DNA from: Marvania coccoides
Lineage: Eukaryota > Chlorophyta > Trebouxiophyceae > Chlorellales > Chlorellaceae
Direction of reading: 5' to 3'
DNA length: 64,000 nucleotides
Assembly (NCBI GenBank): GCA_963854735.1
Contig: OY978107.1
Coordinates: forward strand, 441,501 to 505,500
The translations under genes were made by a program, and so were the position numbers. Each line of letters starts with the position of its first letter. The stretch's first letter is position 1. Under the pieces are notes generated by a model. It was not told the DNA's origin and did not search any database. It worked only from the letters and a program-made list of their open reading frames with translations. Shown here piece by piece: positions 45,901 to 62,727 of this stretch.

Positions 45901-47580
45901 ATGGGAATTCAGGTACATTGTGATGAAAAATATCGTCTTCAATGCCCCATTCTCTGCAACATAGCGCAACCTTGTCCTCACAAAATTGACTTGTTTTTTA
46001 AACAGGGGCTCACCAAGCTGCTAGCGGACCACGCCCCGGAGTCGGTCCGTGAGCAAAAGTTCGAGAACTACTTCGGGCGCAAGATTGCTGTGGACGCCTC
46101 CATGCACATCTACTCTTTCCTGGTGGGTCATACTTTTTCCGCTCGTCAGTTAGTTAGGTGAATAGCTTATATTACGCCTTACTTTACACTTCACAGGTGG
46201 TTGTAGGGCGTACAGGTGACCAGCTGCTGACCACCGAGACGGGAGAGGTCACCAGGCAAGTTTTCGAATTTTATCATGGTTTTTTCTTCTCGCATCGAAC
46301 GCTCAAATTTTGAAAGTATTTTTTCATTCTGACCCTTCTCAAATTGTGCAGTCACATCCTCGGCATGTTCTACCGCACCGCCCGCATGCTGGAGGCCGGC
46401 ATGAAGCCCGTGTAAGCTAGTATTAAAGAAATATTCCTCAATTCTTTTCCCACCCACCAAGACCTATAGTTTATAGTCATTTTCCCCCTTTGGAGAACAC
46501 AAAGTTGCACCCCAATAAATGATATCCCCAACCCCTCTTAAAATGCATTGCAGCTTCGTGTTCGAGGGCAAGGCCCCCGAGCTGAAGCGCGACGAGCTGG
46601 CCAAGCGCTCAGCCCGCCGTGAGGGCGCCACCACCGACCTGGAGGCAGCACGCGAAGCAGGCAACCACGCCGACGTCGAAAAGTACTCCAAGCGCACGGT
46701 GCGCGTCACGCGCGAGCATAACGAGGAGTGCAAACGGCTGCTGCGGCTGATGGGCGTCCCGGTCATCGAAGCGCCCTCCGAAGCGGAAGCGCAGTGCGCC
46801 CAGCTGTGCAAAGACAGCCTGGTGTATGCCATATCCACGGAGGACATGGACTCGCTGACTTTCGCCACGCCCAAGCTGGTGCGCAACCTGATGGCGTCGC
46901 AGTCGCAGAAACTGGCGCCCAAAGAGTTCGACCACGCGGCGGTGCTGGAGGGGCTGGGACTCTCACAGGTAAATACCATTTTATTAATTCATGGTTTGGG
47001 GTTGAAAGCCTTTCAAATTTGGGTTATTTTCATCTAATTTGGTGCGAAACAGCCCCCTATAATTAATAATCTCTGACATTTTCATCAAAATATTCAGGAC
47101 GAGTTCATCGACCTGTGCATCCTGTGCGGGTGCGACTATACCGACAAGATCGGGGGAATCGGCCCCGTGCGTGCGCTGCAGCTCATCCAGAAGCACAAGA
47201 CCATAGAAAAAGTGCTGGAGGCGCTGGACCCAACCAAGTACAAGATTCCTGAAAATTTTCCTTACGAGGAGGCGCGGCGGCTGTTCAAGGAGCCCGACGT
47301 ACTTAAGGGGGAGGCGGTGCCGGCGCTGAAGTGGAGCCTGCCCGACGAGGAGGGGCTGGTGAAGTTCCTGGTGGAGGAAAAGAGTTTTGACGAAAAGCGG
47401 GTGAGGAACGCGGTGGAGCGCATCAAGGCGGCGAAATCGAAGAGCAGCCAGGGGCGGCTGGAGTCGTTCTTCGGGCCCTCGAAGGTCGTGCACTCCACGA
47501 GCGGGGCCAAGCGGAAGGAGGAGCCCAGCAAGGGCAAAGGCAAGGGGCCGGCGGGCAAAAAAGGGAAGAAGGGAAAATGA
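45901..47580 (+). CDS. FEN1: Flap endonuclease 1 (FEN1)
   Basis: Six exons, 45901-45912, 46006-46122, 46197-46255, 46352-46411, 46554-46968 and 47098-47580; 1146 bp, 381 residues, the usual FEN1 length. The first exon encodes only MGIQ. FEN1 trims 5' flaps in Okazaki-fragment maturation and base-excision repair. Motifs: [15 protein letters not shown] (Asp of the N domain), [35 protein letters not shown] (two Glu), [10 protein letters not shown] (two Asp), [20 protein letters not shown] (Asp and H3TH), and a PCNA-binding box QGRLESFF near the end, then a Lys/Gly tail. Odd points: the conserved VFDGK is VFEGK here (Asp to Glu at a metal-site position), and intron 3 (46256-46351) fits only as GC-AG (donor GCAAGT). 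Confidence 0.93.
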
Positions 47581-48302: not shown

Positions 48303-51126
48303 ATGCCAGGCCCGCTGTTGACGCTCCTCCTCGTGGCAGTCCTCGCGACCACCGCGTGCGCTCAGGGGAATAAAAATGCCAATGAAGCTGCAGCTAAGCC
48401 TGCAAACGTCACAAAGTCGTCGCCGTTGTCAGGTGAGCGGCGAGAGCTCAAATTCAAACTCTCTCGCCCAAACGCTGCTGCACTTAATCCTCTCTTATTT
48501 CGTTATCTTTTATATAATCTTACCTCATATTCCACTGCAATTTATTATTACGCTTTAAAACCCCGCTTTCTAACGAGTTTTTCCTTTTCCCGCAGCACCA
48601 GAACTTGGCACTGTTCTGTGCCGCACCCACACAGTGGCACCTGGGGACAACCCCCTCACCCTGGCGCAGAAGTACAACGTGGAGTTTGACGATGTGGTCG
48701 CCGCGCTGAGAGAGTGCGTCGGCTACACCGACACTTTCTTAAACGTCGGCCAGGAGGTCTGCCTGCCGCCCTACTTCCCCGCGTGCAAGAACGTCGACTC
48801 CGTCACCTCCCGCCGCCCCAACTGCAAGGTGTACACCGTGCAGCAGGGCGAGACCCTGGCCATGATCTCCTCTTCCCTGGGCATTGATGCCGACGCCCTT
48901 GTGGAGCTCAACGGCGCCGGAGAGTTGCAAACCGGCCAGAAAGTGAAGCTCACGCCGTGGCACCCGGGCTGCCCCGACCCCACCGAGATTCGCAGGCCTT
49001 CCTGCCGCCTCTACAGCGCCAACGCCGGAGATTCGCTGTCCAAGGTCGCCACCGGCTTCCAGGTGCCTGTGAACGAGCTGATCGCCGCCAACCCCGGAAT
49101 CACCCCCGACATGGTGCTCGCGGTGGGCCTCCCCCTGAGAATCCCGCCCTTCCCCAACTCCTGCGGCACTGGCACCAAGGTAACCACCTTCCCGACTGAT
49201 AACATCAAGTCTTGCCGCGCCTACGCCGTAACAGAGGGCGATTCCATCGCTTCCATCGCGCTGGCATTTGGATCTGTTGGTGCGGAGATTGTGACCCTGA
49301 ATCCCGAGCTGGTTGACCCTTCCCTGCTCACCGTCGGCGACTCCATTAAAATTCCGCCCTGGGACGATTCCTGCCCCGAAGAAGGCGTCCTCGTGAGCCC
49401 TGACCAGCCCAAGACCCCCAGCGTGCAGCAAAAAACCCCGCCGCCTGCTGGCCCCTCCCCCCCTCGCCAGGGAGTGCCCTCGAAGGTCGTTCAAAATCCC
49501 CCGCCTCCCCCGGCCCCCGTTGCAACCCCCCCCCCCTCCGACGTTGACATGTACCAGGTCAAAGTGGAGATGCACATCACGGAAACCACCGAAGCCGACT
49601 TTGTCAGCCAGCAGCAGACCGTTGTGGACATTATTGCCCGCGCAGCCGGAGTCCCGCCGGCCAATGTCACCGTCACTTTTGTGCTGCCCGCCACCTCCGC
49701 CTCCCGCCGCCGCCGCGCGCTGCTGGCGGGCGAAGGCGTGGAAGTGCAGTGCCTGGTGTCCGGCGACCCCGTTACGATCATCGCCAACCTGCAAGCCACG
49801 CAGGCGGCGGGCACGTTGGAGGCGGCTTTCCAGCAACAAAACCTGGTGCTGGAGGACCTCACGGTGATTGATTCTGCGGGTACCGTCACCGAGATTGTGG
49901 CCCCGGAGGCTGCCGCGTCTGCCACTACTGAGGGTTCGTCGTCGGTGCCTCTGGGAGTGATTGTTGGCGCCACCGTTGGCGGTGTTGCCGTCATTGTGGG
50001 AGCGCTCTCTGTATGGTGCTGCCTCACCCGAAAGGGCAAGGGAGACGACGACAGCGAGGATGGGGGCGAGGTCGCCGACGTGGAGGCCGGCACAGTTGAC
50101 GTTTTCACCGACACGTTAAAGAATAAAGCGGCGCTGGAGCAGCGGGCGTTTGACAAGACCTACCGCCCCCGCAGCCCCACGCGCAAGCCCGCCGCCGACG
50201 CCTCGCGCGCCTCCTCCCGCAGCCAGTCGCGCAGCCCCTCCCGCAGTCCCGCCCGCAGCCCTACGCGCACCCCTACTCGCGCTGGCGCCTCCCGCAGCGA
50301 CCGGGCCCTGCTGGACGCTCTCAACCCCAACCCCATTTCCCCCCCATCCCTTCGCAGCGTGTACAGCGGCGGGTACGTCATCCCGGCGTCCATCTCTCAG
50401 CCCGCTTCCGTGCGCCGCCAAGTCCCAGTGGAAATTCCCCGCCAGCCCAGCTCCGATGCTGACTCCATGCCTGACCCCAACGACGACCGCAGCCCCCCTG
50501 GCTACTCCGGGGAGGGGCGGCTTCCCCGCGCGTTCAATGCGGACCTGGTTGCCCCCAACGTCGCCATCCTGCCTGAAAATCTGCCGATGGTGGTTGAGGA
50601 GCTGGCCCCCGCTGCCTCCTCCCACTCGGTATCCAAGCCTGCCGAGCCCCTCGATAACTTCGTCGACGCCCAGGAGGAGCCAGATGTCCTAAACCAGGTT
50701 GCGGAGAAGCTTGCAGAATCGCAGCGCCGCAGCGTGCCGCCGCTGCAGCTGCCTCCCGCTCGCCAGAGCTCTTCTAAGACCGCTGAGAGCAGGGTCACGC
50801 CGAAAAAGACGCCCAGCAAGGTGGCGCGGGCTGTCGAAACCACGCCGTACCGAGGCCGCCAGTCGACTCCCGTCCGGCAAACAACCCCCGTCCGCAGCCC
50901 CTACAGCATCGGCACCTCTGCATCAGGGTCGCCTGCCTCCCCCTGGCCACAGCCTCTGCCCCTCCCCCTGCCCGCCTCCGACCGCAAGCGCGGCTCTGGC
51001 AGTGCGCTGAATGGAACTTACGTCTCGCCCTATGCTCAGCAAAAGACTCGCACGCCGTCGCGCAGCCCCAGCCGCAGCCCCAGAAAAGAGCACCAGGACC
51101 GTCTCAAGTCCATGATGGAGGGCTGA
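48303..51126 (+). CDS. LysM membrane protein with extracellular LysM array, no kinase
   Basis: Two exons, 48303-48432 and 48596-51126; 2661 bp, 886 residues. A signal peptide (MPGPLLTLLLVAVLATTACA) is followed by four LysM-like repeats over about residues 50-300, each ending with a Cys: HTVAPGDNPLTLAQKYNV, YTVQQGETLAMISSSLGI, YSANAGDSLSKVATGFQV, YAVTEGDSIASIALAFGS. Next come a Pro-rich hinge; a separate 120-residue domain (MYQVKVEMHITETTEADFVS ... SRRRRALLAGEGVEVQ ... LVLEDLTVIDSAGT), like the small alpha/beta modules found in algal surface proteins; one membrane helix (LGVIVGATVGGVAVIVGALS) near 490-515; and a 360-residue cytosolic tail rich in Ser/Pro/Arg (RSPTRKP, SRSQSRSPSRSP). LysM modules bind GlcNAc polymers. 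Unlike plant LysM receptor kinases there is no kinase domain. Confidence 0.88.
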
Positions 51127-52031
51127 AAGAGCTTCCTTCGTGTGGCGGGAGAGAGATAGCTAGCCAGCGAATGAGTCGAGCGGAGTAATAAATAATAAAT
51201 CATTTTTGGATTTTTCTTTTTTCATCTTCTTTGTTTCATGTGGAATTTAGACAAGGTGGAATGCCTTTGCTTTTTAAAATGTTTTTTCCCCCGTCGAATC
51301 CACACAACACAACTTGCTAATTTACTACCTGTATCCTCGGCAAACGACCGCCCCACCAGTTTCAGACATGAAAAGGTTTTCTTCTGCCTTTCCCTTTCTT
51401 TTTATTCCACTGCATTCCCTCTTTGTAAACATTAAGTAATGCTATAGATTGTACGTTTGTTTTTGCTAAGCTGCGGGCGGGTATTTGAGCCGGCAGGTTC
51501 GGGGCCCATGCAGAAGGGGGGGGAAACTTCTCAAGGCAGGGTGCACATTCCTGGCATTAACAATCAATCAATAAAAGGAACATGGAGATGATATAATGGC
51601 CGTGAAATTCGAGTCAAGGAAAAAGCAGTTGTAGCACATTGTTTTGGACTGTCCCCCAACCACCAGCCGCGTTGCTTAATGCTCATGGCAATGCCGCTCT
51701 CAATTTGTTATTGTTTTGTAGCTATCTAAAAGCGGAAAAGCCATGGATTTGGTCCGGTTGTAGGCACCCTCGGTGCATTCAATTAAAATTTAGGTAAAAG
51801 ACAAATGTATAGCTCTTCTTTATTTTTTACTTTAGCAGCATTGGGAAGCCATAGATCTACTTTATCCGATCTGAATTTTGCATTTTGGAGCTTCTTTTCT
51901 CGTCCACGCGTACAATCATCTTTGTCTCTTTTCCGCTTAATTCTATGGCTTTCGACCCTTAATTTTATAGTCTTCTTACGATTAACCTCATTCCGATCTC
52001 AAAAACGCCGCAGAGGAGAGCTGGGCCCCCA
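51127..52031. other. Spacer between the first and second LysM genes
   Basis: 905 bp, AT-rich. TTTGTAAACA at 51422-51431 offers a TGTAA motif about 300 bp past the stop. No coding region is supported. Confidence 0.55.
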
Positions 52032-53514
52032 ATGAAGCTTTTTCTGCTTGCAGCGGCGCTTCTTCTGAGGAGCTTCACCTCAGCCCAGAGTAAGCTTTGC
52101 TGCTCAATTAAATTTTCATTCATGCAGCTTGCTTTAACTTGACCTCCCCGACCTCATTTCTCTACCATTCTGTCGCAGTCTGCTCTAAGTACGTCGTGCA
52201 GCCTGGCGACGTCGTTACAACCATTGCCGATAAATTCCAGATTTTGTCAGGTACGCAGCTCATTGGTAAACTCAAAACCTCTTCATTATACATACAATCT
52301 AAAATTTTCAATTTCTATTGTTTTCTTTATTTGCAGATGACCTCATTGCCTCACTTGTGGCATGCGGCCAAGACCCAGAGGTGCTCCAGGTCGGCCAGGC
52401 GATTTGCCTGCCTGGGTCTGACCTCCCTGGCTGCGCCAACGTGATAACCTACGAGGGAAAAGAGGACTGCAAGATGTACGTAGTACAGCCAGGCGATACC
52501 GTCGGCTCTGTGGCAGAATCCCTCGCTTTATTCGACCAGGAGATCGTCAACCTCAACGACGACCTCCTCACCAGCGAATTTTTGCAGCCAAACACGATCT
52601 TGAAGCTGCCTGTGTGGCCACAGTCCTGCGGCGACCCGCAGAAGTCCGAGGATGAATGCCGGGTTTATATCGTGCTGGAGGGCGACACTGTCTCCACCAT
52701 TGCGACAGGATTTTCGATTTTAGTTGAAAAGCTGCTGGCCGCGAACCCCGGCCTCGCTGCGGACTCTGTGCTCCAGCCCAACCAGCCGATTCAGATCCCG
52801 CCGTTCCCTGCCACGTGCGTCGGCGTGCCCACAACTTTCCCTACTGAAAACACCGTCAGATGCCGAGGGTACCGCGTGGCTTCCGGTGACAACCTGGACA
52901 GCATTGCCCAGGCAGTGAGTCGCGGAATTTCTCTTTGAAAATAAATTCAAAATAAATCCACCAGTTTCCCACACTGGTATCATTCTCAATTTCGTTATTT
53001 TTTCCAGTTCAAAACGAGCGTTAACGATTTGAAGGCCGTCAACCCCGAGCTGGCTGGCGGCGCCTTGGTGCAGCCTGGTTCAGTGTTGAATTTGCCGCCA
53101 TATGACAGCTCTTGCGTGCAGCCCATCTTGGTGTCCTTGCCTGGAGGTGAAAGCGACGATGCAAACAGGCCGCAGACCCCCCCCAGTTATCCCGCGTCAA
53201 GCCCCCCGCCACCCACAATCAGCGCTGCAAGCCCGCCCCCCGAAGTGGAAATTTTGCCGCCGCCTCTAGCTCCACCCCCGCCCGCTCCTTCCCCCAATCC
53301 GTCAATTATCGTTCCCACCGTCAACACTACCTCAACCCCTTCCCCAGACCCTCCCTCCCCGGTCGAAAACGCCTCGCCACCGCCGTCTCTCTCAGTTGAC
53401 GTCTCCTCGCCTGTTGAAGGCCCACCTCCTTCCCCTCAAAGCGCGGCGCAAGTTAACTGCAGCACCGTCGTTTTCTTGGTGCTGGTCGCGTTATCTGCCG
53501 CTGGCGTTGTCTAA
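52032..53514 (+). CDS. Secreted LysM protein with Pro-rich tail, probably GPI-anchored (1)
   Basis: Four exons, 52032-52089, 52179-52250, 52337-52914 and 53008-53514; 1215 bp, 404 residues. A signal peptide (MKLFLLAAALLLRSFTSA) leads into four LysM-like units: KYVVQPGDVVTTIADKFQ, YVVQPGDTVGSVAESLAL, YIVLEGDTVSTIATGFSI and YRVASGDNLDSIAQA, spaced by paired Cys (CGQDPEV, CLPGSDLPGC). A long Pro/Ser-rich hydroxyproline-like stretch follows, and a hydrophobic end (CSTVVFLVLVALSAAGVV) with no basic tail, which suggests a GPI signal. It would display LysM modules on the cell surface or wall. Its exon phases and repeat order match the next gene, so the two arose by tandem duplication. Confidence 0.87.
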
Positions 53515-54679
53515 CAACTGTGGGAGATTGAAAGGAGTAGGTAGGGCGGTAAAAATAGTTTTTGGAGCCCAGCAAGCGCTGAAGAAGGCTTTTACAGATG
53601 TTTATACAATTAAATTTTATGGCGGCGATCTGGTGCCTAATATGAGTTTGCGGTGCTTGATGCCGTGAGACAGAGGCTCGCTAACAATTTTTTTGGCGTT
53701 GTCGTCAAAATTGTTTATTATATGAAGCTGCTGGTGCAGCCTCCTCTCACTGATGGATGTTGGAGCAGGAGCAGAAAATTGTACGCTCCGCTGCTGGCCC
53801 TTCTCTTTGAGCTGTTCTGCCGTTTTTTTAGGGGGCAAAGTAGCAATGAAGACGGAGGCTTGCGTTGCGTTGACGCGACTCATGGCTGCGCTTGAAAACT
53901 AAAATGAACTCTTGAACTATGGATACGTAACTCATTGATATATTTTTTTCTATGCTTCGTATACTTCTACCAATTATGCTCAACAGTTAAAAATAATAGC
54001 TTTGCAGGACCGATATGGATGTAAATGTCAATATTCTTCCGTAATATAGCTGCTGACATAGCAACTCGTGCTGTGGTGCGGAGATAAACATCCCAGGGCG
54101 TATACATATCGTGTTGTATAAGCAAATGAGCTTGTGGGTTCCCCAAGCTTTTGCCGCGGGTTCTCAACGGGTATTGTTAAAATGAGCTTGGTAGTGCAGG
54201 TAGGGGCGACGGGTGCTGGAAAAGCCAGACTTCGCTTTCGGGGGAAGGTCCCACATGGCAGCGAGTGCTGGACTTTGCCCACCTTCTGGACATGATGGGG
54301 AAAAAAACGTGTATATTACTGTATGTCTGCCCCTGCTGAGCATGCTGGTCCCGTTTGGAAAAAGCAAAAAGAAAGATTTTTAATTTTCCCGCGGCCGGGT
54401 TTTTGTAAAAAAAATGCTCGTCTCGCCTCCAAAATCATTTATCTTTAAAGTTCGTAGCTGGTTGCCTCACGGCGGATTACAAGGTGCAGGTGAGATTATA
54501 TTCCAACTTTTGACGCGCACGCGGCTCCTCTCTCAACCGTTAGCGTGTTGCGTCACACAGCCCTGTAGCAGCTCAATTGACAGCACCCGTGGCTTGTAAA
54601 GCCTTTTACCAGTCTGTTCCTGACTCCGCCGCCCCCTGGCGTTCTCTGTTGCTGCAGAAAAAGTGGTGGAGAGATCAAC
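53515..54679. other. Spacer between the second and third LysM genes
   Basis: Apart from the small minus-strand open frame listed separately (53617-53883) nothing is supported. The right end holds the promoter and leader of the third LysM gene. Confidence 0.45.
53617..53883 (-). CDS. Hypothetical small protein (88 aa)
   Basis: A single open frame starting MSRVNATQASVFIATLPPKK with a polar middle (QQLHIINNFDDNAKKIVSEP) and a basic end (GIKHRKLILGTRSPP). It could be a small organelle-targeted protein, since the first 20 residues carry few acids. It lies between two LysM genes on the opposite strand and overlaps the probable 3' untranslated region of the upstream one. There is no family match and no splice support, so it may be a chance frame. 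Confidence 0.3.
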   Translation of the reverse strand: MSRVNATQASVFIATLPPKKTAEQLKEKGQQRSVQFSAPAPTSISERRLHQQLHIINNFDDNAKKIVSEPLSHGIKHRKLILGTRSPP

Positions 54680-56232
54680 ATGAAGTTCGCTCTCTTTGCC
54701 CTCGTCGTCCTGCTGGGCTTCGCCAGCACCTTGGCGCAGAACACTGCCCCGAAAACAGGTGAGCTGCGCTGACTGATTGCGTATCTGGCAGGACGATGAC
54801 CCAACGGTCCGGCGATTTTGATGAACATGCGTCAACCAACCCGTTGACGGAGCCCATCGAGCGCTTTTTGCTGACAACTGTCCCTTTCTCTTAATGAATT
54901 TAGTCTGCCCCAAGTATGTCGTGAAGCCGGGAGACTCGCTTGCCACCATCGCGACGAATTTCAGTATCACACCCCGTGAGTTGACCTTCTTACGCGCACG
55001 CGGCCCTTTTGCAAGCTTACTCACCCCATTCCCCTATCATCTTTTTCTCTCTAGCCACCCTCCTCGACGCGTCTCTTGCTGCCTGCGGCCAGTCCGCCGC
55101 TCTGCTCCAGATCGGTCAGGAGATCTGCCTGCCAGGTGCCGACAAGCCCGGCTGCCCCAACGTCATTGCCTTCGATGGCAAGCAGGATTGCAAGGCCTAC
55201 ATCGTGCAGCAGGGTGACACCATCAACTCCGTCGCCGAGTCTCTTGGCATCTTCAACCAGCAGCTCCAGGAGCTCAACGCCGACGTCGTCGCCGGCGGCA
55301 TCCTGCAGCCCGGCAAATACCTCAAGCTGCCCCAGTGGCCCCAGACCTGCGGAGACCCCAACAAGTCCGGCGAGTCTTGCCGCGTCTACATCGTCCAGGA
55401 GGGAGATTTCATCTCCGGCATCGCCACTGCCTTCTCGGTCTCCATCGATGATCTCCTCACGGTCAACCCCACCCTCGCCAACGGAGCTGCCACCATCCTG
55501 CAGAAGAGCCAGCCCATCAACATTCCCCCTTTCCCCGCCTCTTGCGGCGCCGGTATCCCGACCAAGCCCCCCACCAACACCGTGATCAAATGCCGTGGCT
55601 ACCAGGCCCAGACCAACGACGATCTGAACACCATTGCCACAGCAGTACGTCCCTCTTTTAAATTTCCTCTTATAAAGCTCAAAATAATTCACTTAAATGC
55701 TGTATTTTTCTCCCTCGCACGCCCACCACCTTATTATTCCCTCGTCCTCTGTTCTTTTTGCTTGCAGTTCAAGACCACCGTGTCTGAGCTGTCCAACCTC
55801 AACCCCGAGCTGGCCACCGCCGGCATCGTCAAGCCTGGAGACGTCGTCAAGGTGCCCCCATACGACTCTACCTGCACCGACCCCATCTTGGTGCCCCTCC
55901 CCTCCAGCAACACCCCCCCGGCCCCCGTGACCCCCCCTTCCCCTGTCATCCCCTCCCCTCCCCTCTCCCCCGTAATCCCTTCCCCGTCTCCCCCCCCTGT
56001 GGTGCCCAGCCCGCCTTCCCCCGTCCCCAGCCCCCCCGCTATCGCCCCCTCCCCTCCCATCGTGGCGCCCTCCCCCGCGCCCGTCCCCTCTCCCCCCACC
56101 GAGGAGGCCTCTCCTCCCCCCTCCGAAGTGGTGGTGACCTCCACCCCTCCCCCCCCCGTCAGCGGAGCTGTCAGCAGGTCCGGCGTGGTGGCTGCCGTCG
56201 CCACCGTGCTGGCCGCTGTGGCTGCCTTCTAG
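54680..56232 (+). CDS. Secreted LysM protein with Pro-rich tail, probably GPI-anchored (2)
   Basis: Four exons, 54680-54758, 54904-54975, 55055-55644 and 55768-56232; 1206 bp, 401 residues. Signal peptide MKFALFALVVLLGFASTLAQ, then four LysM-like units (KYVVKPGDSLATIATNFS, YIVQQGDTINSVAESLGI, YIVQEGDFISGIATAFSV, YQAQTNDDLNTIATA) with Cys pairs as in its neighbour (CLPGADKPGC, CGDPNKSGESC). Next comes a Pro-rich (PSPP) tail of about 100 residues, and a C-terminal hydrophobic GPI-like signal (SGVVAAVATVLAAVAAF). Exons 2 and 3 have the same lengths or nearly so as in the gene at 52032 (72/72 bp and 590/578 bp), with identical phases. Its codon choice is more strongly C-ended than its sister's, which hints at higher expression. 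Confidence 0.88.
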
Positions 56233-57193
56233 GGCGGTGGAGCGCAAGCGGATTATAAGAACGAGCGGTGCTTATTAGAGAGTGAACACAGTATCAGTAT
56301 CAATGACAACGATTATCTCAGCGGTACAAACCTCCAACATTTACTGTCGTCTTCGTCATATTTATATCCCTTTTTTCGTAAACGTTATTTTTCGCTTCTT
56401 TGATGTCTTGGTGCTCTGACTTGAAGGCGGCGGAGCACGTCGTGGCAGAGACACTTTTTGTTTGATAGAGGGCCAGGAGTTTGTATTTGGACTAGGTTAT
56501 TTATGAGGAGCGGTGTTCCAAAGAATCAAATTTTCTCGGCATGGGTAATTATTAGGTAGGATTGTCTCATTTTTAGCTTATATAGGCACGCTGTAACTCC
56601 CCAAGAATAAAGCATTAAATGAGAGAAGAGGAATAAGAGCTTTGTGTTTGAAGCAGAAACAGCAAATTTCCCGGCTTTGAAATTGGATATGGTGGGATAG
56701 CTCCAGGAGGAAATGCACTTTCCCCTACGAGAAATATAGGGGCGCTGCAGAGGCGCCCTCGCTTAGCATGGAGCAGCTCTCTTCTTCCTTGCTAGCTGGT
56801 ATTGGAGCATTACAGTCGGACGCGCGTTGGACCGCCGCTGTCACCTGCTGCTGCTGCTGGCTTTTCATGCAGAAATTGCATGCGGCCTGGGCCGGCCACT
56901 GAAATCTTGGGAGCGGTGCTGGGTGCGCACTCTCGCTGGGTCTGCACCTCTTTTAGCTTTTTTGAGCTGCTGCCCACAATCCTCAACTGCTGCACGGACT
57001 TTCCAACCATTGAAATTTCTCAAATTTGCAACGCGTCCTCGGCTCCACCGCATATTTATTTTTATTTTTGAATACGTAAATCTGCAAGTAATTTCTTGAT
57101 CGTTGCGGGACGGTGCTGTTTGCTTGAGGCGACGGCAATTTCGTTTTTCTCGCGGCGTGTGGAGTAGTTTGCTCTGCGCAGCGGGTCTGCAGA
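56233..57193. other. Spacer, LysM / chitin synthase
   Basis: 960 bp. CTGTAACTCC at 56590-56599 is a TGTAA motif about 360 bp past the LysM stop. Open frames around 56802-57099 lie on both strands and show no motif; they probably belong to the chitin synthase promoter and leader. Confidence 0.55.
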
Positions 57194-60100
57194 ATGGCAG
57201 ACCCTCGCAAGGCTGCTATGATGGAAGATGCCGGCTCAGATGTGATGGAGGACGTGAGAGGTGCGTGCGGGCAATACTGCTGAAATCGAATCCCTTGAAG
57301 CAGCATTGGCTTGCAAGCGACCAGCGGGCCGGGCTGCCGGTGTTGGAATTAATTCCTGCATATTTCATCGGCACTGACCAGACCAGCGCCGCGGCGAGAT
57401 CAATGCGGCTTGCGTCACTGATACTAACTGTCTCTTGCCTTTGTTTCCGCGTGTGCAGCCGAGGAGCTGCCCGACCTCCTGGTGGCCAACACCGACGTCA
57501 CTATCCAAGCCCCCATTGACGAGTACTACCAGAACCTGTCGGTGCGGCTGGAGGAGCTGAAGCGGGAGTTTACAAAAATTGAAGCTCGGGCAGGCCACGA
57601 GCAAACTTTCGAGGATTACATCCAGGGCGACAGGGAGTTCGCTGAGGGTGTGCAGCAGAACAGTCAGCGCTACTATGATGCGCTCAAGGTGCTGCGCGCA
57701 GACACACAGGTGAGATCTCCTCCATATTCAATTCAAACTCATTTTTTCAGTGCCCAATTCGCACCCACTTCGCCCTCCAACCCCTTCAATGTAACCCTCT
57801 CTTTCCCCTCTTCCAGATCTTCTATCCGGTGCCCAGTGAGGTGTACCGCGACGAGTGGGACGACGTGATCATGGACGACACCATGGAGTATACTCACTGC
57901 CGCTACACCCCCGTGGTCACGGAGGACCCCCGCGACTTTGGCATCGACGGCTACACGCTGCGCCTGCAGCGCGAGGACCGCCGCATCCGGCTGCTCATTT
58001 GCGTGACCCTTTACAACGAGGATCAAGACACGCTGCGCAAGACCCTCCTGGGCATTTGCGACAATCTGGAGGTGCTGTACGAGAAGTTCACGCTGGCGGA
58101 CGGCCGCAAGGGCATGGACTGGCAGGAGGTGGCGGTGGTCATCGTGCAGGATGGCCTGCAAATGGCCGATCAGTCGATCGTGGCGGCGGCCACCGTGCAG
58201 GGTTTTTTCTCGCCCGTGGTGCTGCAGAGCGAGGTGCTGGGCACCCCCACCTCGCTGCATCTCTTTGAGTACACCGCGCGCTACAAGAAGCACGCCGGTA
58301 TCGAGAACTACCCGCCCCTCCAGGTAAACAAATATAACTAAAGCAACCGCTGGCATCAACACACTCCTGTTTTTTTTGCTTACATTTTATTGAAATTTAT
58401 TCTAAAATGTCCCTTATAAACTCACCTTTTTCCTTCTCCCTCCTAATTTATCAATCCCTGCAGGTCATTTTCGCCACCAAGACCCAGAACAAAGGAAAAC
58501 TCGACTCGCACTGCTGGTATTTTGACGCCTTCTCCTACCTCATCCAGCCAGACTACTGCGTGCTGTTCGATGCGGGCACCCGCCCCATGCCGTCCGCCCT
58601 CAAGGCCGTCTGCACGCACTTCCAGCGCTACCCCAACGTGGGAGCCCTCACCGGAGAGCTGCGTGTGGAACGCCCCTACCGCACCTTCCTCGCTTCCGTG
58701 CAGTTTTGCGAGTGGAAGGTGTCCCACCTGCTGCAAAAGCCCATCGAGTCGGTGTGCGGCTTCCTCACGGTGCTGCCTGGCGCCTTCTCAGCCTTCAGGT
58801 GGCTGGCGGTGGACGGCGAGCCGCTGCGGCGCTACTTCTACGGCCTCTACTCCCAGGCGGAGCTCAACGCCTTCGAAGCCAACATGTACCTGGCCGAGGA
58901 TCGCATCCTCTGCCTGGAAATCGTGGCTAAAAAGGGCGCGCAGTATCGGCTGGAGTACGTCAAGGAGGCAGTGGCGGAAGCGGATCCGGTGACGAGGCTG
59001 ATCGGCCTCATGAAGCAGCGCCGCCGCTGGTTGAACGGTACCTTCTTCGCAATGCTGTACGCGCTGGGCAACTCCGGCCGCATTTGGACGGAGTCGGGGC
59101 ACTCCTTCCTGCGGAAGATGGTGCTGACGCTGGAGTTTATCTACCTGACGACCGTGACGGTGGTGGGCACGTGGTTTGGCATCGGTATCTTCTACGTCAT
59201 GCTCACCATGCTGCTGCAGGTGGCCTTTGACGGCCCCGGGTGGCTGGTGGCTATTGGCTATGCGGTGCAGCTCATGTACCTCTTCCTGCTCATCATCCAG
59301 CTCATCGTCAACCTCAAAAACAAGGTCGAGGCCGTGGAGAAGGTGAAAACCGCGTTTTTTTGCATTTTTGTCTTGAAATTTTATGCTTTTCTGCCTTCCC
59401 CCCCCCCCCCCTTGTTCTTTTTACGCCCACCCCCTTTTACCTCCCTTTATATTTCATTGCTGAAATTATCTTCCATTAATTAACGTTTCTGACCATCATT
59501 TTCTTTCTTCCTCTCCCTCCCACAACCAACCAACCATCAGATCCACACCTTCTGCGCCCTCTACTTCTGCCTCTACATGCTGGTCTTCACCGGCGTCACC
59601 ATCTCCTTCTTCGTCACCTCCAGCGACTTCTCCTTCGCCGGCATCTCCTCTGACACCCTGGGCCTGCTGGTGCTCACCCTTATGTCCGCCATCGGCGGCA
59701 TCCTGCTCACCGCCCTGCTGCACGGAGACTTAATGTCGGTGCTGTGCGCTGGCTTCCAGTACTGGATCATGCAGCCCGTCTTCTACAACATGCTGCAGGT
59801 CAGTAGAAATCTCCTTGAAATTTCTTAAATCCCTGTATATTTTCCTCTAAAAACACGCTGCTAAATAGATCAGTAGTCCCTGAAACACATTTCCACTTTC
59901 TGAGTTATTTTGTACTGACAACGTCAATTTCCCCCTCCCCTCTTTCTTCGTTAGGTCAACGCCTTCTGCAATGCTGACGACATCTCCTGGGGTACCAAGA
60001 ACCTGGACAAGAGCGGCACCCACGAGGCCGTCAAGACGCAGTCGAAAAAACTGGCCTACCGCGTGCGCCCCACCCAAACCTCCCGCGCCTTCTGGAAGGC

Positions 60101-61067
60101 CATGAACGACCTGCAGTCCCACCTCGTCGACGAGCAGCAGGTCAAGCGCTACAACGCACGCAAGGAAGCGAAACTCCGCGCCTTTGCCTCCTACCTTCTC
60201 ATCGCGTGGGTGGGCTCCAACGTCATCCTGGCCGCTGTCATTCGCCTCATTTCCAACTACGAGTGGGAGGTGTGCGCGGTCACCGAGTCGGAGATGGCGG
60301 TGTCCGCCATCCGCTCGCAGGCGGACGACTACGACAAGGCGCTGGCCATCGCCGACCTGGTGCAGACGGCGGTGACCATCCTGCAGCGAGGCTCCCAGCT
60401 GTACCCTTTCAACGGCCTGCAGGGCTTCCCGCAGCAGTACCCCATGCTGGTGAGCGGCGACGCGCAGTCCGCGGCGCTGCGCGGCGCCCGGGTCACGGTG
60501 CTGGCAAACGCCACCGAGATGTTCTCCAACCTGGACCAGTCGATGCCCAAATTCGAGGAGTGGCTGGCGCAGGCAATGGGCATCAACGCCTCCGCCACGC
60601 TGGCCGAGTTCAACCAGATTTGGCTGCCTATGCCCAGTAACACCACTGGGTTTGACACCACCATCACCTGCAAAAAGGAGTTTGGCTACAAGTACTACCT
60701 GCAGGCGCAGTTCCTGCTGCTCATGTTCATCATCATCTTCCAGGTGGGCGGCTCCGTGCTGTTTATCATCTTCACCTGGTGGCGGCGCTTCACAGCGGCG
60801 GCGTTCGGCGCGGGGTCCAACAACGCGCCCTCCGGCGTCGACGCTGACGGCAAGATCCTGGACACGGACGATGAGGACGACATCGGCAGCGACTTTGAGG
60901 TGGCAATTCAGCCCAGCAATGCCCGGTACATTGCAACGCAGCGGAGGGTGCCGTCTAGTGATGAGATCGACTCTGCCACAGACAGCGGCTCGTACACCCC
61001 CACCTCCATCAACAGCGGGCACGGCGGAATCCGCCGCCGCGGCGGATCGCCTCGCTACGTCGACTGA
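57194..61067 (+). CDS. CHS: Chitin synthase (family 2 glycosyltransferase)
   Basis: Six exons, 57194-57260, 57459-57709, 57817-58323, 58464-59342, 59541-59798 and 59955-61067; 3075 bp, 1024 residues, all GT-AG and in phase. It polymerises UDP-GlcNAc into chitin and extrudes it through the plasma membrane. Motifs: LLICVTLYNEDQDTLRKTLL (donor site), VVIVQDGLQM, VIFATKTQNKGKLDSHCWYF, the metal-binding LFDAGTRP, TGELRVERP, FEWxx-like FCEWKVSHLLQKP, GAFSAFRW, the catalytic EDRILCLEI, and the product-channel QRRRWLNGTFF. Several helices follow (LEFIYLTTVTVVGTWFGIGI; LFLLIIQLIVNL; YFCLYMLVFTGVTISFF; LGLLVLTLMSAIGGILL), and an additional C-terminal part with two helices around a 170-residue loop, ending in a Ser/Arg/Gly tail. 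There is no myosin motor. It lies directly after three LysM genes. Confidence 0.93.
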
Positions 61068-61871: not shown

Positions 61872-62727
61872 TCAGAAGCCGCTGAATCCCTTCTTGGCGC
61901 CGGACCCTGCGGGGATCACGCGCAGCACGTTGAACCGCACGGTCTTGGACAGCGGCCTGCACTGGCCGATGATGACGGTGTCGCCCTCGTGGCAGCGGAA
62001 GGCGGGGGAAATGTGCGCGGAGATATTGGTGTGGCGCTTCTCGTACCGCTGGTACTTCTGGATGTAGTGCAGGTAGTCGCGACGCACGACGATGGTGCGG
62101 TTCATCTTGGTGCTCTTCACGCGACCGCTGAGGATGCGGCCACGGATGGAGACATCGCCGGTGAAGGGGCACTTCTTGTCGATGTAGTTGCCCTCAATGG
62201 CCTCCTTGGGGGTGCGGAAGCTCAAGCCAACGTTCTTGAACCACCGGTTGCCGCCCTTTCCGGGCTTGCCGCCTTTCCTGTTGGACACCTTCTGGTAGCT
62301 GCAATAACGAGCGAAAAGAATGAAAGAGGTGAGAGACGTGTCTTTGCGGCGTATTCTGACCCCCGCTCCAGTCCTTGCTCCATTTTCTCCTCTCCCCATC
62401 CCCCAAAATAAGGCCTCCATTTTGATTGCGCACAGCCGCCGAGTTGCACCGCATCGCGTATCTTTCCAGCTGCTACCTCCGAGCCGCATCAGCCCAGCCG
62501 CTGCGCTGCCGCACGCTGTTCAAGCGCCACTCCATCGCATTTTTAATTCCATTTTTCTCGCCACCCCCTCTGCTTCCATTCATTTTGAAAAACCACTCAC
62601 CCTCGGCTGATGCCAATCTGCTTCTGGAACGCCCTCTCCGTCTGCAAAGCACACCAAATAAATCTTAATTAAATTCATGTCTCATTTTGGGGGGTGCGAG
62701 TCTCTAAAAATTTACCTGGTCAGCCAT
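61872..62727 (-). CDS. RPS11: 40S ribosomal protein S11 (uS17)
   Basis: Three exons, 62727-62716, 62641-62601 and 62298-61872; 480 bp, 159 residues, the normal length. Exon 1 encodes only MADQ and exon 2 [13 protein letters not shown], a split often seen in ribosomal protein genes. The rest is classic uS17: [80 protein letters not shown] and [20 protein letters not shown]. It sits at the base of the 40S subunit and contacts 18S rRNA. It is divergent from the unknown gene at 63017, 289 bp apart. Confidence 0.96.

Follow-up and report, generated by a model that had tools for sequence, protein, structure and literature searches.

The 64,000-nucleotide window analysed here (G000:C11:441501-505500, on contig OY978107.1 of Marvania coccoides) carries three genes for LysM-domain proteins, LysM1, LysM2 and LysM3, followed by a putative division-1 chitin synthase (CHS). 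After splicing, all four are intact tandem genes on the plus strand, at 48303-61067 (Table 1); the splice choice at these genes is ambiguous by up to a few residues. A first-pass annotation of the window had described three tandem LysM surface-protein genes and a full-length CHS on the same strand within 13 kb, and had pointed to the linkage of synthesis and binding genes. Both statements stand: the coordinates are exact once the genes are spliced, and LysM1 to LysM3 do lie beside an intact CHS. The genome searched comprises 22.46 Mb in 15 contigs, and the contig of the window, C11, was read on to position 555500. Genome-wide, 15 LysM matches were found at E <= 0.01, in 7 loci, five of which are on C11 between 490.1k and 539.1k. 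The tandem LysM array is explained in part by duplication. The more striking gene, compared with the four in the window, is LysM4, which lies outside it and joins a LysM ectodomain to a protein kinase.

The LysM4 protein is composed of a signal-like N-terminus, four LysM domains, a Pro-rich stalk, a transmembrane segment (TM) and a complete kinase. Its ectodomain matches PF01476 in 4 stretches (5.5e-30), and the single TM, as predicted from hydropathy, is a peak at residues 368-394, between ectodomain and kinase. Stalk, TM and kinase N-lobe, together with half of the fourth LysM, are encoded by a single exon of 384 codons, and this continuity speaks against an assembly chimera. The kinase motifs GMGSFG, AAVKLL, HRDLKSPN, ADMG and APE are present. 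The 3′ open reading frame (ORF) alone gave no Pfam match because introns split the kinase; the spliced protein does match. Among the best 60 of 2348 PDB matches of the kinase, the Raf-like CTR1 is the closest (1.1e-47), followed by TAK1 chains at 1e-31. Judged by these PDB matches, the kinase appears to fall outside the receptor-like kinase (RLK)/Pelle family. By its layout LysM4 would work like a LYK, yet we do not class it as one. Plant LysM receptor-like kinases (CERK1, LYK, NFR) likewise have a secreted LysM ectodomain, one TM and a cytoplasmic kinase, whereas LysM4 differs from them in its four LysM domains, long Pro-rich stalk, Raf-like kinase and recent local origin from LysM3.

The evidence for that origin is in the DNA. 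LysM3 and LysM4 are 91.7% identical over 1438 bp with introns included, the introns being identical at 138/145, 69/77 and 121/123 positions, and the similarity reaches ~170 bp into the sequence 5′ of the start codon before it fades. Over 296 codons, the synonymous divergence (dS) is 0.096 and the nonsynonymous divergence (dN) 0.023, giving a dN/dS of 0.24. The 15 nonsynonymous and 20 synonymous changes, set against a 3:1 ratio of sites, depart from neutrality (P 5e-5), as is the case for a sequence under constraint. By this comparison LysM3 is the parent or sister of the LysM4 ectodomain, which is a copy of recent date. Gene conversion between the two genes would also lower dS, and the age derived from dS is therefore a minimum.

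A search of the genome with the LysM4 kinase gave 146 matched stretches, a count that includes the LysM4 exons. Outside LysM4, the best loci are 62-64% identical and located on C12, C13 and C3; with a relative encoded on C2, the alignment extends across the TM too, at 43%. With the TM, juxtamembrane region and kinase as query, 17 stretches matched, again counting LysM4 itself. The genome contains a large, expanded Raf-like kinase family (for example, C12:986398, C13:921260, C13:916685, C3:7402, C3:14534 and C7:631-643k), in which some pairs have equal or nearly equal scores (C7:631k/641k and C4:1873k/1884k). This family may be a broader group of receptor kinases in algae. A member also occurs at 299-1570 of the window, 38% identical to the LysM4 kinase.

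LysM1 has a signal-like N-terminus and a LysM region of 4 matched stretches, followed by a Pro-rich linker and a juxtamembrane module that includes an Arg-rich stretch. On hydropathy we take residues 491-522 as its TM; a weaker peak at 260-278 falls within a LysM. The tail of 364 residues is rich in Ser, Arg and Pro and has no kinase; four proteins found by searching match this layout and keep YxSPYxQ motifs in the tail. In LysM2 and LysM3, a Pro-rich linker connects the LysM repeats to a hydrophobic C-terminus, which by hydropathy alone resembles a glycosylphosphatidylinositol (GPI) attachment signal in both. A database search with LysM3 gave 44 matches, including a Picochlorum sp. BPE23 protein at 61%; the ten lowest are weak, at 25-33% identity. 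The structure model of LysM3 has a LysM fold, with an overall mean pLDDT (a model confidence score) of 66. Of 19 PDB matches to the LysM3-family profile, the fungal Ecp6 is first (9e-13), and CEBiP is found at 1e-3. The GPI-anchored LYM/CEBiP proteins and Ecp6 share with the window proteins several LysM modules and a cell-surface layout; the window family differs in having four modules, a Cys before each, and the Pro-rich stalk. Chitin is a candidate ligand of these proteins. A further LysM gene of extracellular type, whose product has a hydrophobic stretch and a short tail, is present away from the cluster, at C1:3037958 (L027:3943-5124, minus strand).

The exons of CHS encode the Pfam domains Chitin_synth_1N, Chitin_synth_1 and Chitin_synth_2, and the segments LYNED, QDG, FDAGT, AEDR and QRRRW, which we take to be the catalytic motifs of chitin synthases, are all present. 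These domains and segments place the enzyme in division 1, with chitin as its probable product. All six sequences of solved structures that it matches are chitin synthases (best 1e-98). Its relatives include a 79-member cluster at 82%, Chlorella sorokiniana at 65%, and Micractinium, C. vulgaris, Parachlorella and Helicosporidium at 54-55%; lower down, the best 120 of 3838 matches include fungi, oomycetes and others at 31-40%. In a tree of 37 chosen rows, for which the program flags long branches outside the green-algal group, 17 rows including all named green algae form one group (100/100) with two algal subclades, and the window protein is in a subclade with C. sorokiniana (82/97). By this kinship and the LysM3 matches, the host is a chlorellacean near Picochlorum. 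The PF08407/PF01644 core and the catalytic segments are common to division-1 enzymes of fungi, oomycetes, Chlorella and Picochlorum; in contrast to these, the window CHS has a C-terminal extension of ~270 residues (~755-1024, exon 59955-61067) with no convincing Pfam match. The AlphaFold model of this exon has a mean pLDDT of 50, too low to interpret. The extension lies between two hydrophobic stretches and is conserved in algal CHS. Genome-wide, five chitin-synthase matches occur at 3 places (C11, C7 and C4). Those on C7 and C4 were rejected as duplicates of CHS, being a Chitin_synth_2-type pair only ~24% identical to it; the two genes (C7:659163-660624 and C4:2184387-2185866; L028 and L029) are much alike by eye. 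A viral origin was also rejected: IMG/VR, scanned with CHS and LysM sequences from relatives as well as a LysM alignment, gave no relative, and the phage collection gave no match.

Two further genes on C11 extend the set beyond the window. The first encodes a membrane-bound chitin deacetylase that carries a LysM. Its two PDB matches are both chitin deacetylases, the insect enzymes 5zns (3.7e-37) and 5z34 (3.4e-36). The NodB/CE4 motifs, which we take to be DD, HxxxH, RxPY, DSS and LxH, are present, the first of them (MT1) reading THDD. The domain of ~310 residues and the motif set are shared with 5zns and 5z34, whereas the LysM, Pro-rich stalk, juxtamembrane module and TM are additions of the algal protein. 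The second half of the protein is similar to LysM1 in the Pro-rich stalk, the juxtamembrane module with its Arg-rich sequence and the TM (27% over 269 residues, 6e-10, the aligned part being in places Pro-rich). The second gene encodes a GFAT. Its 3′ ORF, used as query, is closest to eukaryotic GFAT (GFAT1 chains ~1e-134; 7ndl 8.4e-135) and contains the SIS pair; NF001484 scores above its cut-off, and TIGR01135 at 399 bits is below its cut-off of 418. The survey of pathway genes covered the UDPGP family, GH18, GH19, GFAT and the deacetylase domain.

Table 1. Genes at the LysM-chitin synthase locus (positions in the window unless prefixed by the contig)
Feature	Position	Strand	Domains and remarks
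XPG/FEN1-like nuclease, two ORFs	46519..47577	+	PF00867; the name FEN1 is our reading; conserved housekeeping flank, outside the module
LysM1, 886 aa, 2 exons	48303-48432, 48596-51126	+	PF01476 3.2e-29
LysM2, 404 aa, 4 exons	52032-52089, 52179-52250, 52337-52914, 53008-53514	+	Pfam LysM
LysM3, 401 aa, 4 exons	54680-54758, 54904-54975, 55055-55644, 55768-56232	+	Pfam LysM
Putative division-1 CHS, 1024 aa, 6 exons	57194-57260, 57459-57709, 57817-58323, 58464-59342, 59541-59798, 59955-61067	+	PF08407 + PF01644 + PF03142
Ribosomal protein uS17	61872..62519	-	PF00366; conserved housekeeping flank, outside the module
LysM4, 846 aa, 8 exons	C11:530884-534138 (L023:5384-8638)		Spliced gene model
Membrane chitin deacetylase with LysM	C11:537.9-540.1k		PF01522 6.7e-9
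GFAT	C11:546-548.7k		PF01380 6.2e-60

The neighbourhood that the first-pass annotation proposed to look for in related algae was found, minus one LysM gene, in the one relative that could be compared, a Picochlorum-like alga. When GTDB contigs were scanned with the CHS alignment, 3 loci were obtained: L040 (JAGYIR010000010.1:97597-120675, on a contig of 603,575 bases with algal genes) and two matches of 23-26% in other metagenome-assembled genomes (MAGs). The CHS at L040 is 93% identical to the 79-member CHS cluster. The gene order is FEN1-like, LysM1-type, LysM3-type, CHS, uS17 (minus strand) and a relative of the gene at 63.5k of the window, which is the window order including the strand of uS17. 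Compared by eye, the LysM3-type ORF resembles P0147, a protein with 94% identity to P0123 of Picochlorum. Elsewhere on the same contig, a deacetylase with two LysM stretches (64.6-66.9k) adjoins GFAT (67.7-69.9k), with CHS at 107.6-110.7k, so that LysM1, the LysM3-type gene, CHS, LysM-deacetylase and GFAT are all within ~46 kb, without LysM2 and LysM4. The gap matching the position of LysM4 (C6 ~62.2-62.7k) is too small to contain the gene, and the LysM4 kinase as query in 400 kb of the relative's sequence found a 25% match only. A LysM1-type protein (P0167) and a LysM3-type protein (P0152) from another source both have 31172 as their longest contig, which suggests that they are on one contig in another sample. 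At least three conserved blocks, one of them inverted, relate the C11 region to the relative, indicating rearrangement. Synteny is support for an old neighbourhood. The LysM1 of the relative (L040:5581-7641), read from ORFs, has three LysM stretches and a shorter tail than window LysM1. The algal contig itself (L040, L053-L072) is mis-binned in GTDB, in a MAG of a Crocinitomicaceae bacterium.

The above observations suggest a chitin/chitosan module at the cell surface, together with a wall sensor that evolved independently; we give this reading a probability of about 0.55. In such a module, whose genes would presumably be co-expressed, GFAT would raise the hexosamine flux and the division-1 CHS would polymerise and export chitin. 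The GPI-like LysM2 and LysM3 and the membrane-bound LysM1 would hold the polymer at the surface, while the membrane deacetylase could dock by its own LysM and trim chitin towards chitosan. LysM4 would have arisen, in this lineage, when a copy of the LysM3 ectodomain was joined to the cytoplasmic part of a membrane kinase of the Raf-like TKL type, and it may read the polymer anchored by LysM3 and serve as a sensor of the wall state. That a chlorophyte independently evolved a LysM receptor kinase from these two parts, within its own neighbourhood of chitin genes, and monitors its own chitin/chitosan wall with it is a more tentative proposal. The first-pass annotation had suggested a dedicated chitin wall module or a receptor tuned to the cell's own chitin. 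This interpretation is supported in part. The module has gained the LysM-deacetylase and GFAT past the window, while selection for clustering stays conjectural, since unrelated genes are syntenic too; the receptor has gained a LysM kinase with the LysM3 ectodomain, and its tuning to self chitin is retained as a presumption.

Several observations weigh against this reading. The LysM4 kinase has DMG where DFG is expected, and the first exon of the C11 deacetylase was not found. LysM domains bind peptidoglycan as well as chitin. The bacterial LytE is the second PDB match of the LysM3-family profile, and a fold search with the LysM3 model matches LysMs of chitinase, receptor, effector and bacterial proteins alike; structure therefore does not choose between the two kinds of ligand. 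CHS and deacetylase are ~35 kb apart, with kinases, a trehalose-phosphatase and other unrelated genes between them. Other pathway genes are scattered: UDPGP-family matches are on C2 and C5, GH18 on C7 and C8, a second GFAT on C12, and six of the seven deacetylase-domain matches of the genome on contigs other than C11. No GH19 match over the cut-off was found in the genome, and a GH19 chitinase was rejected as a member of the module on the basis of a single sub-cut-off match. Finally, conservation of order in the relative is not limited to the module: the FEN1-like gene, uS17 and further unrelated genes share it, and the region is a patchwork of conserved blocks. The proximity may therefore be inherited, and synteny is no proof of a functional cluster or of selection for clustering.

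This conserved order of unrelated flanking genes is what would be seen if a tandem LysM family merely happened to adjoin CHS and the neighbourhood reflected the general synteny of related algae. Tandem duplication would account for the LysM array, and the chance that randomly placed CHS (3 loci) and GFAT (2 loci) would both fall <=10 kb from the LysM interval, ~6e-5, was computed post hoc and takes no account of tandem or block inheritance. However, CHS, LysM-deacetylase and GFAT are kept within ~60 kb in the host and ~46 kb in the relative despite rearrangements, and five of the seven LysM loci of the genome are here; we consider a neutral neighbourhood improbable. Less improbable, although still unlikely, is that the LysM proteins, including LysM4, detect foreign chitin or peptidoglycan and that the proximity of CHS is incidental. 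Plant CERK1 and LYM proteins detect microbial chitin or peptidoglycan, and the layout of LysM4 resembles that of plant immune receptors. LysM is a generalist binder of N-acetylglucosamine (GlcNAc), the family matches bacterial LysM, Ecp6 and CEBiP, and a study of infected Graesiella emersonii, also an alga, lists LysM genes among the candidate receptors (PMC8657485). On the other hand, a chitin immune receptor in a chitin-making cell would be expected to trigger itself. LysM-deacetylase and CHS are within tens of kb of each other in two genomes, and LysM4 shares its ectodomain with LysM3, a GPI-like and probably structural neighbour.

Division-1 CHS in Chlorella and Picochlorum is known already (PMC5122149), and LysM receptor kinases have so far been reported from land plants and the algae closest to them. 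PMC6362431 gives Chara as the first LysM-RLK record, notes LysM-kinase proteins in bacteria and LysM proteins in chlorophytes such as Chlamydomonas, and reports no lectin receptor kinases from four chlorophyte genomes. A few receptor kinases are known in chlorophytes, none given as LysM in the available part of PMC10868138. A GH19-LysM protein was reported in Trebouxia (PMC12712428) and one LysM protein in Prototheca (PMC7941945). In the literature searched, whose coverage omits most subscription papers, no LysM kinase is described in chlorophytes, Trebouxiophyceae or Chlorella, nor is the present arrangement among reports of green-algal CHS with LysM or deacetylase. The earlier suggestion that the system had not been described appears to hold for the arrangement and fails for CHS itself. 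A parallel is found in viruses: the GFAT of PBCV-1 adjoins hyaluronan synthase, which makes a GlcNAc-containing polymer (PMC5408694), and CV-class CHS is colocated with polysaccharide deacetylase in viruses and fungi (PMC5122149). Chlorovirus polysaccharide genes resemble the algal locus in both linkages; however, the viral CHS is of division 2, the algal one of division 1, and the available text describes no LysM set there.

If the proposal is true, LysM4 is convergent with plant CERK1-type receptors, by a route in which the binder came first and the receptor later, and LysM receptors can arise by ectodomain copying, here onto a different kinase family. With its ectodomain still 92% identical to LysM3 in DNA, LysM4 would provide a system for asking about the sensing of self-wall chitin. 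With CHS, LysM-deacetylase and GFAT linked, the question of chitin/glucosamine walls in Chlorella-type algae becomes testable gene by gene. Just 3′ of the window, at C11:506.9-508.6k (L021:1405-3107), weak GH43-like ORFs are present, scoring under the curated cut-off.

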